Below, piece by piece: positions 3,510 to 33,674 of a stretch of 64,000 nt of DNA. Positions within the stretch are counted from its first letter, which is position 1, and the number at the start of each line of letters is the position of its first letter. Source of the DNA: Senegalimassilia faecalis (lineage in GTDB: Bacteria; Actinomycetota; Coriobacteriia; Coriobacteriales; Eggerthellaceae); assembly GCF_004135645.1 (NCBI RefSeq), contig NZ_SDPW01000001.1:930001-994000 (forward strand). The letters are read 5' to 3'. A model generated the notes under the pieces. The model made no database searches. It was not told the DNA's origin and was given only the letters and a program-made list of their open reading frames with translations. A program made the translations under genes and the position numbers.

Positions 3510-4007
3510 GCCCTCGCCTCCTTCCACCGCATCGCGGCTTTCCGTATCCCCTTGCGCTTGCATATGCGCGCGCTCGGGCTTTTCCGGTACCCTGACATAT
3601 TCATGGGCCCACTCCTTCCCGCACGGCCCTCCCATGCCATCGCGCCCGCCGACGTCGGCCTCACTCGCCGATCGCCGGACGCGCGCATAGCCCGTAACCG
3701 CGCATCGCGCCAGCGGTGCAAACGGCATCGAGCCGCTACACCTCCTCTAAACATCATTGCCAAAGGGGGTACACGGAACCACGCCGTATTTACGAACGCG
3801 AGACTTAGACGATTTGTTTTCGCAGGTGGGTGAAGCGGCGTCAGGAGGTCGTATAAACGACCCCCTGGACAAAACAGCCAAACCGCGGACGCCCCCCGAG
3901 AACTCACGGCCAAAGTTAACCCCTTCGGAAAAATTAAAAAACGATGGCAACGCGACAAGGGATACAATAAGGAAAAGGGTGCGGACACACTTGGAAGGAA
4001 GGGCGCG
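3510..4007. other. Divergent intergenic region (498 bp), no gene
   Basis: This stretch separates the minus-strand adhesin from the plus-strand LuxR-type gene. It must hold both promoters. A possible -10 box TACAAT lies at about 3963-3968 for the plus-strand gene, without a convincing -35. Reading frames here lack ribosome sites and any recognisable product. No repeat or RNA was recognised. Confidence 0.5.
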
Positions 4008-28057: not shown

Positions 28058-28117
28058 TGAGTATTTTTACTCATTGTACTGAGTAAAAATACTCAGTACA
28101 ATGAGTAAAAATACTCA
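28058..28117. promoter_or_regulatory. Perfect 60-bp palindrome with three phased boxes before the DUF4143 ATPase
   Basis: Two perfect 28-base arms meet at AAAA. Inside are three 16-bp boxes, TGAGTA-T4/A4-TACTCA, separated by TTGTAC and GTACAA, so box centres are 22 bp apart, about two helical turns. This fits an operator array for a dimeric DNA-binding protein; it lies 18 bases before the ATG of the ATPase gene. Confidence 0.75.
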
Positions 28118-28135
28118 ACACACCTAGGAGCGCCC

Positions 28136-29332
28136 ATGTTTGAACGCAATCAAGTCAGCACGCTTGTTTCCCGCCTTGCCGAAAGCAACAACCCCTTGTT
28201 GGAAGTAGTCGTGGGACCGCGCCAAACCGGCAAAAGCACCATTCTCGCCCAAGCGCTCGCAAAACTTAGCGTTCCTACTACGTTTATAAGCGCCGATGAC
28301 GCCATCGTCCCCTCAACAGATTGGCTGCAAACAGAATGGCAGCAGGCCAGAAACGCCACAGCCGGAGGCGCGCATCCGGCGGTACTTGCGATCGACGAAA
28401 TTCAAAAGGTTCCGCATTGGTCCGCCGCGGTCAAAGCTCTTTACGATGCCGACCGGCGCAATGCAGTACCGCTGCGAATCGTGCTCAGCGGCTCATCGTC
28501 GTTGCTTCTTCACAAAGGCTTGGAAGACTCGCTTATGGGACGCTTCGAGCTCATCCGTTCGCCGCATTGGAGCCTTGCCGAATGCGCGGAAGCTTTCGGT
28601 TTCACGCTTGACGACTTCCTCTATTTCGGAGGTTATCCGGGTGCAGCGCGTTTCACCGATGACGAAGCCCGCTGGAGCTCCTATGTTCGCGACGCCATCA
28701 TCGAGCCAACCATATCGCAAGACGTGCTGTCGCTCGGAGACATCAGAAAGCCAGCTTTGATGAAATCCCTGTTCAAACTGGGTGCCATCTACTCTTCCCA
28801 GGAACTTTCGTACACGAAAATGCTTGGGCAGCTGCAAGATGCGGGCAACACGGTGACAATTGCGCACTATCTTGACCTTTTGGGAAAGGCGGGAATGCTG
28901 TGCGGCCTGCAAAAATACGACGACAAAGAGCTATCACGCAGAAAAAGCTCTCCGCGTTTGATGGTGTACGACACTTCGCTTATGACCGCCACGTCCGACA
29001 AAAGCAAAACTGCATTCGAAACGCAACGTGACTTGCGAGGACACCTGGTGGAATCGGCAGTCGGGGCCCGTCTACTTGCGCGCGCGCCGGAAGAGGGCTT
29101 CACCGTTTCATGGTGGCGCGAAGGCAACAACGAGGTTGATTTCGTGTTGGCGAAAGGAACGGCGCTAGCGGCAATTGAAGTGAAAAGCGGGCACGAAACC
29201 GCCCAAAGCGGCATGGCCGAGTTCCTGAAGAAGCATCCAGAAGCAAAGCGAATCATCGTCGGCGGCGGCTCAGCAGGCGCCTGCAGCATCGAAAGCTTCC
29301 TTCGCGATGAAGTGCCGCTGTTTTACGAATAG
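28136..29332 (+). CDS. AAA_14/DUF4143 family ATPase
   Basis: 398 residues; ATG behind TAGGAG. The Walker A is VVGPRQTGKST (26-36), Walker B VLAIDEIQKV, sensor VLSGSSSLLL, followed by the DUF4143 C-terminal domain with a nuclease-like EVDFVLAKG ... AIEVKSG segment. Proteins of this family are multiplied in gut anaerobes; their role is not established and the C-terminal fold resembles PD-(D/E)XK enzymes. The gene stands alone, with more AT than neighbours, and is bracketed by related palindromes (28058-28117 and 29358-29399), which suggests a self-contained, possibly horizontally moving cassette. No transposase is nearby. Confidence 0.9.
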   Translation: MFERNQVSTLVSRLAESNNPLLEVVVGPRQTGKSTILAQALAKLSVPTTFISADDAIVPSTDWLQTEWQQARNATAGGAHPAVLAIDEIQKVPHWSAAVKALYDADRRNAVPLRIVLSGSSSLLLHKGLEDSLMGRFELIRSPHWSLAECAEAFGFTLDDFLYFGGYPGAARFTDDEARWSSYVRDAIIEPTISQDVLSLGDIRKPALMKSLFKLGAIYSSQELSYTKMLGQLQDAGNTVTIAHYLDLLGKAGMLCGLQKYDDKELSRRKSSPRLMVYDTSLMTATSDKSKTAFETQRDLRGHLVESAVGARLLARAPEEGFTVSWWREGNNEVDFVLAKGTALAAIEVKSGHETAQSGMAEFLKKHPEAKRIIVGGGSAGACSIESFLRDEVPLFYE

Positions 29333-29357
29333 ACCCATTCACCTGGCAAAATCTCAA

Positions 29358-29399
29358 TTACTCACTATACTGAGTATTTTTACTCAGTATAGTGAGTAA
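29358..29399. promoter_or_regulatory. Perfect 42-bp palindrome after the DUF4143 ATPase
   Basis: Arms of 19 bases meet at TTTT and contain the same central box TGAGTA-TTTT-TACTCA as the upstream array, with further half-sites TTACTCA and TGAGTAA placed outside at the 22-bp phase. It may be an operator or a hairpin end of the cassette. Confidence 0.7.
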
Positions 29400-30468: not shown

Positions 30469-31728
30469 TTAATCAGCGTTTGCTTCGCGCGCAATCTCAA
30501 CGCCGATGCGGTGAGGCACGTCAACGACCAGGGCATTTCCCATGCAGAAGGCACGGCGACCATCGCTCATGCCCGTATTGGTCCAACCCTTCGGGAAGCC
30601 TTGCAGCTGGTCGAGTTCGTCGGGAACCAAACGACGATACTTGCCATCAATCTCAACGACATGCTTGAAACGAGAAGCGCCAATGCCGCCTTCACCCGTC
30701 AGAATCGTGCGAGACGGCTTCTCAAGTGAATCCGGGAAAGCCATCGATCCTTCCGAGTAGAAATACTTGAAGCCCGTCTTCTTATTGACGCGCTCTTCAC
30801 GCTTGCCGCCCTTGAGGTACTTCCACGATTCAAGTTTCTCATCAGGAATGTAAAACTCAGCAGGCACTTCCCCCTCGGGAACCAGCACATTGCCAAGCGC
30901 ACCAAGTTTGCCCTCGTACTTTTCAGCCGCGTCAAACGTCAAGACTTTGAAGTCCTGCATAACGCCAACCGAGCAAAAAGGCGATTTCTTGCCTGCAAGG
31001 TCAAAGTGCTGAGTGATGTCGTAGGGGTCGTGCTGAATCTCAAACTCCGAAATCGAATCCGGCTCCGCGACGGGGAACGCACGCGCCATCACGCCCTCGC
31101 GAGCACGCGCAGCCAAATCCCAATTGCTGCTCGTGAGTTCAGCAAAAACGTACACACGCTTGCGGCGCTGGTCAAAACCGTACTCGCCGCTGTTCACCAC
31201 ATGCCATTCAACCGAATATCCCAGGTCAGCCATGCAAGAAAGGATAATTGCGAAATCGCGGCCACGCTGCGTTGCAGGGCTTTTCAGCAGACGGTCCACA
31301 TTCTCAAGTAAAACGTACTTCGGTTCCTTCAGATGCAAAAACCGATAGATATCCCACCAAAGCACGCCCTTCTTGCCCTCGATGCCTCGAGCGGCAGACA
31401 GCGGTTTCGCAACGCTATAGTCCTGGCAGGGGAAGCCGCCGACCACCATGTCGACATCTGGAATGTCAATCTCGCCAGCCTCGTAGTCGTCCAGCACCTT
31501 ATTGATGTCTTCGTTTACGCAACTGCCTTCGCCAAAATGCTGCTCGTAGCAGCGCCAGGCGAACTGCTTGCCATCCGTTCCCGGCGGCTCCCATTGGTTC
31601 GCCCAAATCGTCTCAAAAGGACCGGCAGCGGGCATATCGAGCTCAGGATGATCGGCATTTCGGTAGCCCTCAAGGCCCAGGCGAAACCCGCCAACGCCAG
31701 CAAACAGCTCGGCCACCTTAATCGTCAT
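30469..31728 (-). CDS. DNA (cytosine-5) methyltransferase, probably GATC-specific
   Basis: 419 residues from ATG 31728, preceded by AAAGGATG; an ATG three codons upstream touches the AAGG and is less likely. The conserved C5-methyltransferase motifs are in order: I (AELFAGVGGFRLGLE), IV with catalytic Cys 101 (GGFPCQDYS), VI (LLENVDRLL), VIII (QRRKRVYVFA), IX/X (FPKGWTN, FCMGNALVV). Its partner at 31880 is a Sau3AI-like endonuclease, so the recognition sequence is probably GATC, methylated on C. Order is endonuclease, methyltransferase, SRAP, all minus strand. Confidence 0.93.
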   Translation of the reverse strand: MTIKVAELFAGVGGFRLGLEGYRNADHPELDMPAAGPFETIWANQWEPPGTDGKQFAWRCYEQHFGEGSCVNEDINKVLDDYEAGEIDIPDVDMVVGGFPCQDYSVAKPLSAARGIEGKKGVLWWDIYRFLHLKEPKYVLLENVDRLLKSPATQRGRDFAIILSCMADLGYSVEWHVVNSGEYGFDQRRKRVYVFAELTSSNWDLAARAREGVMARAFPVAEPDSISEFEIQHDPYDITQHFDLAGKKSPFCSVGVMQDFKVLTFDAAEKYEGKLGALGNVLVPEGEVPAEFYIPDEKLESWKYLKGGKREERVNKKTGFKYFYSEGSMAFPDSLEKPSRTILTGEGGIGASRFKHVVEIDGKYRRLVPDELDQLQGFPKGWTNTGMSDGRRAFCMGNALVVDVPHRIGVEIAREANAD

Positions 31729-31879
31729 ATTTCCCATCCTTTGCCTGATAAAAAGAAGCCGGCCGCTAGGCCTGCGCAAAAATCGAACCTATCCAGGATC
31801 GATAATCTTGCCCCAAAAGTCAACTCTCTGCATCTGGTTCTTTTATCAAAATCCGCAACTGGTCCCCAACGAATCGCAC

Positions 31880-33373
31880 TCACGAATCCGCCGCGTCAGA
31901 TTCATCCGTCTTTACCACTTTATAGATGTAGCTGTTATTCAGCCAGAAGCTCTGCTTCGTCATCATCCGGCCATCAGGAAGCGGATAAGCGTCTCTTTCG
32001 ACATCGCCCAATTCCGTTCCGTCAGCAAACCGATACGCAGATTTAGTTGCATGCGGGCGCACATGAGCAACGGCATTGTCTTCCGCCCCCGGCAAATTGT
32101 TCTTAACCCTAATGCTTCCGTCTCTCTGCCTTGTTACATCAAGATAGACACCTTCTTCAACAACCTTTTTCGTTGCCTGCCAACAATCATGAACAGGGCC
32201 GTCCAGATCCATCGTTGGCATAGACCAGAACAACGCGTCTTCCAAACGCGCGCAGCCATCTTCTTTCCTGAACACCACAAAGAAGAATCTTGTCTGCTCC
32301 AGATATTCAAATAGCGACGAGCCTTCCCAGTCTTCCTCTACCAAGTCAAGGAATTTGAACGTATCTAGCGATAAGTTTTCCTTTATCCCGCCCCTTGTTT
32401 CAAGGCGAACGGTTCGCACCGAGATATTTGCCTTCTCGAACTCCTGAGCCTTCTCACCTCTAACGCCGAGCATGGCGTACGACAAACTTGACCATTGCCG
32501 TTTATTGCCCTTGTATTCCAATCCAAACTCTTCGCAAAGTTCGCGATCGGTCTTTCCAAAATGGGGCTTGATCAGGGACAACACGTAATCTTCGAACGTC
32601 TGAGTTGCAGGAGCATCGCCCTTGACAATGCAATCAAGATCTTCGCTCTCATTCATTAGGTAGTGGTGCAGCACGTAATCCATGTATTGGCGCTTGAGAC
32701 AAAACGCGCGCTTCTTCGCCTTTGGACCACCTGGCGCATAATATTGGTCAACCCAGCTTTTGGCCGCTGTCGGCCCTTTCGTGCAAGCACCCAAATAGAC
32801 AGTCAAGCTTTCACTGAGCCGGTCCGCTTTTCCTTCTTGGACCAGCGATGCAATCTTGCGATAGTCATCGCGAATGATTTTCAAGTCATTCTCTGGGATT
32901 TCGAACAATTTCGCATAGCGAATTTGCTGCCGATAAGGATCAATCGCCTTGTCGCGATGGTAATACACCAGCATCATCTGCTTACACTTTCGTGCAACAA
33001 CAGCGTCATCGAATTCCGATTGTATAGGCTCATCGTAGGGAATCATCGAGACAACAAGCCGCTCACCAGCGGAATAATCGCCGTTTTTCTTCTTATCGAA
33101 GCACGAGACTTTCAGTTCAACGCCGGCCTCGGGAAAGTCCGCATCGTGGTCGCTATTTGCTTTATAACCGAAAAAGCGCTCTTCAACGAGCGTGCCCATT
33201 CCACCTTTGTATTGGCGGTTATCGTAATCGCGCGTTGCTCCATCCGGCGGATAAATTCCCATATCCAGGATGTCTTGGAATGTCTTCCCTTCGAGAACCG
33301 AAGCGCGCGAGGCAATGGCCTCAGGAGTTGAATAATCACCGCAAACTGACGTGCTAGGATTCGAAATCCCCAT
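31880..33373 (-). CDS. Sau3AI/MutH-family type II restriction endonuclease
   Basis: 497 residues from ATG 33373, 6 bases after GGAG; close to the length of Sau3AI. The catalytic N-domain has KGGMGTLVEERFFGY and the D-x6-E-x-K triad D79, E86, K88, exactly spaced as in MutH (D70, E77, K79). The C-terminal half repeats the fold without the triad, as in Sau3AI where it is the allosteric DNA-binding half. It cuts unmethylated GATC by family knowledge. The gene precedes the methyltransferase by 151 bases without a recognisable controller gene, so regulation must use promoter position or the DNA itself. Confidence 0.92.
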   Translation of the reverse strand: MGISNPSTSVCGDYSTPEAIASRASVLEGKTFQDILDMGIYPPDGATRDYDNRQYKGGMGTLVEERFFGYKANSDHDADFPEAGVELKVSCFDKKKNGDYSAGERLVVSMIPYDEPIQSEFDDAVVARKCKQMMLVYYHRDKAIDPYRQQIRYAKLFEIPENDLKIIRDDYRKIASLVQEGKADRLSESLTVYLGACTKGPTAAKSWVDQYYAPGGPKAKKRAFCLKRQYMDYVLHHYLMNESEDLDCIVKGDAPATQTFEDYVLSLIKPHFGKTDRELCEEFGLEYKGNKRQWSSLSYAMLGVRGEKAQEFEKANISVRTVRLETRGGIKENLSLDTFKFLDLVEEDWEGSSLFEYLEQTRFFFVVFRKEDGCARLEDALFWSMPTMDLDGPVHDCWQATKKVVEEGVYLDVTRQRDGSIRVKNNLPGAEDNAVAHVRPHATKSAYRFADGTELGDVERDAYPLPDGRMMTKQSFWLNNSYIYKVVKTDESDAADS

Positions 33374-33674
33374 CTCTATCTCCGCTCGCTTAAACTCGCA
33401 ACCACACATGCCGCACCCATCGTATCAAACAAGCACGAACGCTTCCGCAAGCACAAACAAGGCCGAGTTCTCTCCGGAACCTTTTCGCAAGCGAACGGCG
33501 AGCGAATCCCAAATGCGGCCGCGCGTCGAAATGTTCCTGCTCCGCAGCCAAGCGAACTAACGTTGTCTGGCCCGGGCTGGTCCCAGTAACCGCGCCAATC
33601 GGGGATGAGATGTGCAGCAATCACTTAGCTCCGGGCGCATGGATTGCGGCAAACGTTTGATTCCGATGCGCACG

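Follow-up and report, generated by a model that had tools for sequence, protein, structure and literature searches.

What reads the palindromes that bracket a single ATPase gene of Senegalimassilia faecalis? The window analysed here, a stretch of 64,000 nucleotides from the genome of this bacterium, contains a gene for an AAA_14-DUF4143 ATPase (28136-29332, + strand, 398 amino acids) that is preceded and followed by copies of the 16-bp box TGAGTA-N4-TACTCA. An initial annotation had described three such boxes at a 22-bp phase in a perfect 60-bp palindrome before the gene, and a perfect 42-bp palindrome with the same box after it, and had considered an autoregulatory operator array or the ends of a mobile cassette. 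Both palindromes are exact. A motif scan of the window places box 1 at 28058-28073, box 2 at 28080-28095 and box 3 at 28102-28117 (all +), each 22 bp from the one before. Together they span the upstream palindrome (28058-28117, +; 28-bp arms, 4-nt centre), which ends 18 bp before the ATG; a ribosome-binding-site-like AGGAG follows it (28126-28130, +). The downstream palindrome (29358-29399, without strand; 19-bp arms, 4-nt centre) begins 25 bp past the stop codon and encloses the fourth box (29371-29386). These four boxes are the only exact matches in the window and in the whole 2.75-Mb genome; shuffling the window leaves 0.59 matches on average even when two mismatches are tolerated. Box 2 forms the spacer of a promoter-like sequence with a weak -35 element, TTGTAC-17-TACAAT (28074-28102, +), which was recognised from the sequence and was weak and not called in a promoter scan.

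The encoded protein was assigned by profile matches to the PADLOC family PDC-S01, with model PDLC04791 matched at full length (1e-167, residues 1-394 of 398) and domain matches above the curated cut-offs for AAA_14 (5e-21) and DUF4143 (3e-26). The Walker A motif GPRQTGKST (residues 27-35; 28214-28240, +) was located by alignment conservation, and both Walker A (G27PRQTGKS/T) and Walker B (L84..D87E88) are conserved across 39 aligned sequences. A conserved PD-(D/E)XK-like signature, D335 ... E348-x-K350 with E306 upstream, lies near the C-terminus (29138-29185, +); it is recognised by motif only, the Pfam PDDEXK_5 match being weak (E 0.055). PDC-S01 has been described as a single-gene phage-defence candidate in which an ATPase is fused to a domain of the PD-(D/E)XK superfamily, and was reported to rank fourth in frequency among defence calls or candidates in prokaryotes, without experimental validation (PMC12988326). 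The ATPase of the window is thus a PDC-S01 phage-defence candidate with a putative role in protection against phage.

Structural comparisons bear mainly on the AAA+ part of the protein. Foldseek supports the AAA+ core only, which resembles clamp loaders, ORC and Orc1 at low TM-score, and a sequence search of solved structures likewise found the AAA+ core only, weakly, the profile match to 2FNA having an E-value of 0.25. The archaeal ATPase SSO1545 (PDB 2FNA) and Orc1/Cdc6 have the AAA+ core in common with the window ATPase and carry a winged helix C-terminal to it; homology at the sequence level is established for the core only. AlphaFold models built from four input sequences are poor in the DNA-binding middle domain (pLDDT under 50), and the proposed winged-helix fold of this part is therefore deduced from the sequence and from helix predictions.

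The initial annotation had suggested comparing the flanks of related genes. In a first set of 44 relatives of the ATPase (46-74% identity; boxes read by eye), drawn from Eggerthellaceae, Lancefieldella, Slackia and one distant actinomycete, palindromic boxes at a 21-22 bp phase were found directly upstream of the start codon in all 44, so that homologs lacking palindromes were not encountered. The centre of the boxes is A/T-rich, mostly AAA/TTT, and the half-sites vary with the protein (TGAGTA, TGAGCA, TGAACA, CTCGCA, CTCACA, CTATCA). In several relatives (L040, L043, L070, L076, L078) a good -35/-10 pair is separated by 17 bp that the box takes up completely. Many regulators typically act on palindromes with a 22-bp phase, and another transcription factor of the host might bind the boxes. 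Paralogs of one and the same genome nevertheless differ in their half-sites (G044, G045, G049 and G067; for example L042, L075 and L079 in G045), which argues against one shared host regulator and led us to reject it. Furthermore, no conserved regulator gene is found nearby, and any one neighbouring gene is common to at most 3 of the 44 loci. With the covariation described below, which falls inside the ATPase itself, binding by another host factor is extremely improbable.

The reverse question, whether the boxes occur at unrelated loci without the gene, was addressed with 397 genomes from the order. These contain the phased TGAGTA double box at 29 loci, 24 of which belong to an ATPase gene, either intact and directly downstream (22) or reduced to a C-terminal remnant (2). 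At the two remnant loci (L275 and L277, in two genomes) the array is retained before ATPase C-terminal residues 343-397. Five double boxes have no ATPase nearby (L271, L272, L278, L289, L290); some of these resemble terminator hairpins, and the one at L290 comes after an open reading frame whose end resembles another DUF4143 protein.

The box sequence covaries with residues of the ATPase. For this analysis, half-sites were assigned by eye to a training set of 39 aligned proteins, and a partial Mantel statistic related half-site distance to the distance in windows of nine residues with whole-protein distance removed. The correlation peaks at r 0.58 in residues 224-244, where DUF4143 has a conserved segment resembling a helix-turn-helix. 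In the window this segment comprises residues 224-245 (LSYTKMLGQLQDAGNTVTIAHY; 28805-28870, +), and its residues 227, 236, 239 and 240 covary with the box. Base -4 of the half-site is best predicted, over all approximately 400 residues, by residue 227, with arginine accompanying C in 26/26 cases and any other residue accompanying T in 13/13. Base -5 is best predicted by residue 239 (alanine with A, 6/7; threonine with G or T, 32/32) and bases -8/-7 by residue 236 (alanine with TG; lysine, arginine or glutamine with CT; one exception), while base -6 goes with residue 240.

On a tree from which residues 215-250 had been left out, A239 together with A(-5) originates at four separate places, one of them nested in a TGAGCA/T239 clade (L051); the independent changes are too few for a sign test to reach significance. 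Residues 48-66 also track the box class by eye, with a partial correlation of 0.28 that is far below the 0.58 of the helix. A second peak was observed at residues 115-131 (window positions 28478-28528), near the AAA+ sensor, with a partial r of 0.45; it could be due to contact or to common descent. Among more distant proteins, one from a scaffold in a phage collection (44% identity) also fits the residue-to-base rule, and a Bacteroides protein (L151, 43%) violates it at base -4.

The predictive value of the rule was determined on 63 unseen relatives, many of them from other families, after the rule had been fixed in writing before the data were read. Scored by the commonest coded half-site of each gene, predictions were correct for 45/63, 11 of these being tied with another coded half-site; 1000 shuffled predictions averaged 16.3 and never exceeded 24. 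Leaving out the commonest class (TGAGTA), 19/33 remained correct (shuffled mean 6.7, maximum 12). For L190 the rule predicted CTAGTA, which no training gene has, and this half-site was found. The 18 misses include six near-copies that are one base off, with CTAGCA instead of CTATCA. Because it has clades in common with the training set, the blind set tests the rule and not independence.

Conservation in all 44 relatives, a box sequence that tracks the protein and not the host, and covariation with the helix-turn-helix residues together give strong support to the putative autoregulatory operator array of the initial annotation. We consider it likely that the ATPase binds the array at its own promoter through the helix-turn-helix of DUF4143 and thereby regulates itself, probably by repression. 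Dimers would bind one to each palindromic box via a winged-helix-type helix-turn-helix at the start of DUF4143, and the phase of about 22 bp would set adjacent dimers on the same face of the DNA helix and allow cooperative binding. Binding would most likely repress transcription, since the boxes take up the gene's own promoter between -35 and -10 and over the start region. Such repression would keep a nuclease-like defence ATPase, presumed to have nuclease activity, at a low level until infection or foreign DNA titrates it away from the array or alters its ATP state. In an Argonaute-positive strain of Thermus, a DUF4143 gene was up 6.6-fold with plasmid DNA present (PMC4406477), and by analogy this rise possibly hints at inducibility.

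The ATPase might instead read the array chiefly as a loading, sentinel or self-marking site, comparable to an iteron or origin, from which DNA is surveyed, with effects on transcription being secondary. The similarity of the AAA+ part to clamp loaders, ORC and Orc1 noted above would suit such a role, as would the retained PD-(D/E)XK signature and the iteron-like classes with 23-bp direct repeats described below. Yet the arrays lie at the gene's own promoter and ribosome-binding site, they occupy the whole stretch between -35 and -10 in several relatives, and they are seldom repeated downstream or at a distance, which makes this function unlikely as the principal one.

Arrays were also searched for across the wider DUF4143 family. 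Upstream self-repeats were detected by a segment-pair score evaluated against dinucleotide shuffles (significant at p<=0.01), which was used instead of k-mer and ungapped palindrome statistics as these are too weak for gapped half-sites. Significant self-repeats were present upstream of 140/205 family genes (71/114 in the first set, then 49/63 and 20/28 among later family genes) versus 12/156 intergenic control genes of the same genome. The upstream array is thus a general feature of the family. The arrays are private to each gene and consist of palindromes or direct repeats with a phase of 21-23 bp; the periods of the direct repeats cluster at 21-23, 32-34 and 40-46 bp. In a second subfamily the arrays are mostly direct repeats of 23 bp, present in two to five copies and forming no hairpins. 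Further examples of arrays were found in Bacteroides, Thermus, Azotobacter and a scaffold in a phage collection. On a Thermus plasmid (L157), the palindrome CTGAATGATTATCATTCAG stands just before the ATG at 1779 of a DUF4143 gene. In a sample of the wider phylum, which is of unequal power, only 18/42 genes were significant, and arrays are likely to be general outside Coriobacteriia as well.

The genome of S. faecalis itself harbors eleven full-length DUF4143/PDC-S27 genes, ten of which were scored; seven of the ten have significant upstream self-repeats, and each array has its own sequence. The eleventh gene (L005) shows clear direct repeats by eye, with four copies like TTTCGCAATCGGTTGGT upstream of the start. 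Three consecutive DUF4143 genes are located at 2.081-2.085 Mb of this genome (G000, L027; L003, L005, L006). In addition, a 54-bp palindrome occupies positions 2720-2773 of L013, right before the start of a PDC-S27 gene, and the array pattern may therefore extend to PDC-S27.

These results also bear on a purely RNA-based explanation, with the upstream palindrome as an attenuator or leader hairpin, the downstream one as a terminator, and no reading of the DNA by a protein. Both palindromes are very stable when folded as RNA (-43 kcal/mol upstream, -29 kcal/mol downstream), and the downstream one is a strong terminator-like hairpin with a T-rich tail. Many members of the family, however, have only 23-bp direct repeats and no hairpin (L081, L083, L086, L234, L241, L247), and the box sequence covaries with protein residues. 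RNA hairpins in place of protein binding are accordingly quite improbable, and an RNA attenuator was rejected as a general explanation, the potential for hairpins not being conserved in the direct-repeat classes. A terminator role is possible for the downstream copy alone; this copy may equally serve as an operator for looping or be left over from a copy since lost.

The downstream copy was also the basis for the second proposal of the initial annotation, the ends of a mobile cassette. On this view the two inverted palindromes would bound a unit that the ATPase or some other enzyme mobilises. The window has one copy on each side of the gene in inverted orientation, L001 and L101 likewise have a downstream copy, and the content of the chromosomal slot differs from species to species. 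The two genus mates have an unrelated HNH_2 gene at this position, with the same two genes flanking it, and the ATPase gene is thus accessory. Against the cassette, a convincing downstream box is exceptional, occurring in about 3/114 family genes; beyond the window, such copies were seen at L001 and L101, with a half copy at L009. The cassette is therefore not supported and was rejected as an explanation; the arrays follow the promoter, an empty site was found in neither genus mate, both slots being taken by the HNH_2 gene, and we regard cassette ends as highly improbable. A megablast search of the ATPase locus against plasmids gave no match, and scans of viral contigs for relatives of the ATPase or for the double box found nothing. 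Upstream of the HNH_2 gene of one genus mate (G002, L169, approximately 3580-3640), CTATCA-like/GCTAG repeats occur at about 22 bp and perhaps represent a relic, resembling the operator of another ATPase class. Beside the ATPase lies a type II restriction-modification pair consisting of a C5-cytosine methylase and, after it, a restriction enzyme of the MutH/Sau3AI type (30469-33409, -).

Among open-access papers other than preprints, no mention was found of a promoter array or of DNA reading by the PDC-S01 family. A similar known system is RptR of type I restriction islands, which represses its own promoter via three repeated boxes overlapping the -10 element and is, like the ATPase proposed here, linked to defence and self-repressing (PMC12255303). 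In that system a separate helical repressor recognises a 6-bp box, whereas here the defence ATPase itself would be the reader of gene-specific 16-bp boxes at a 22-bp phase. Self-encoded sites at their own promoters are also used by autoregulating antitoxins and by the controller (C) proteins of type II restriction systems (PMC12255303); in contrast to the ATPase, they are encoded by separate regulator genes, and their DNA reader has no ATPase or nuclease domain. For the LacI family, residue-base rules have been inferred from operators beside the regulator genes (PMC2978694), but these proteins are classical transcription factors and not a defence ATPase.

For the family as a whole we propose, tentatively and with somewhat more doubt than confidence, that each AAA+/winged-helix/nuclease protein reads a private phased array, palindromic or iteron-like, by a residue-to-base code and that dozens of paralogs can coexist without cross-talk. 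The array may in addition be where the ATPase rests while it monitors for invading DNA. Private arrays would account for the presence of many paralogs in one genome. For a helix-turn-helix catalogued in public models as a domain of unknown function, the rule amounts to a recognition code. In addition, a DNA ligand predicted for each PDC-S01 member from its own sequence provides a biochemical handle for probes, reporters, specificity swaps and the search for inducers.
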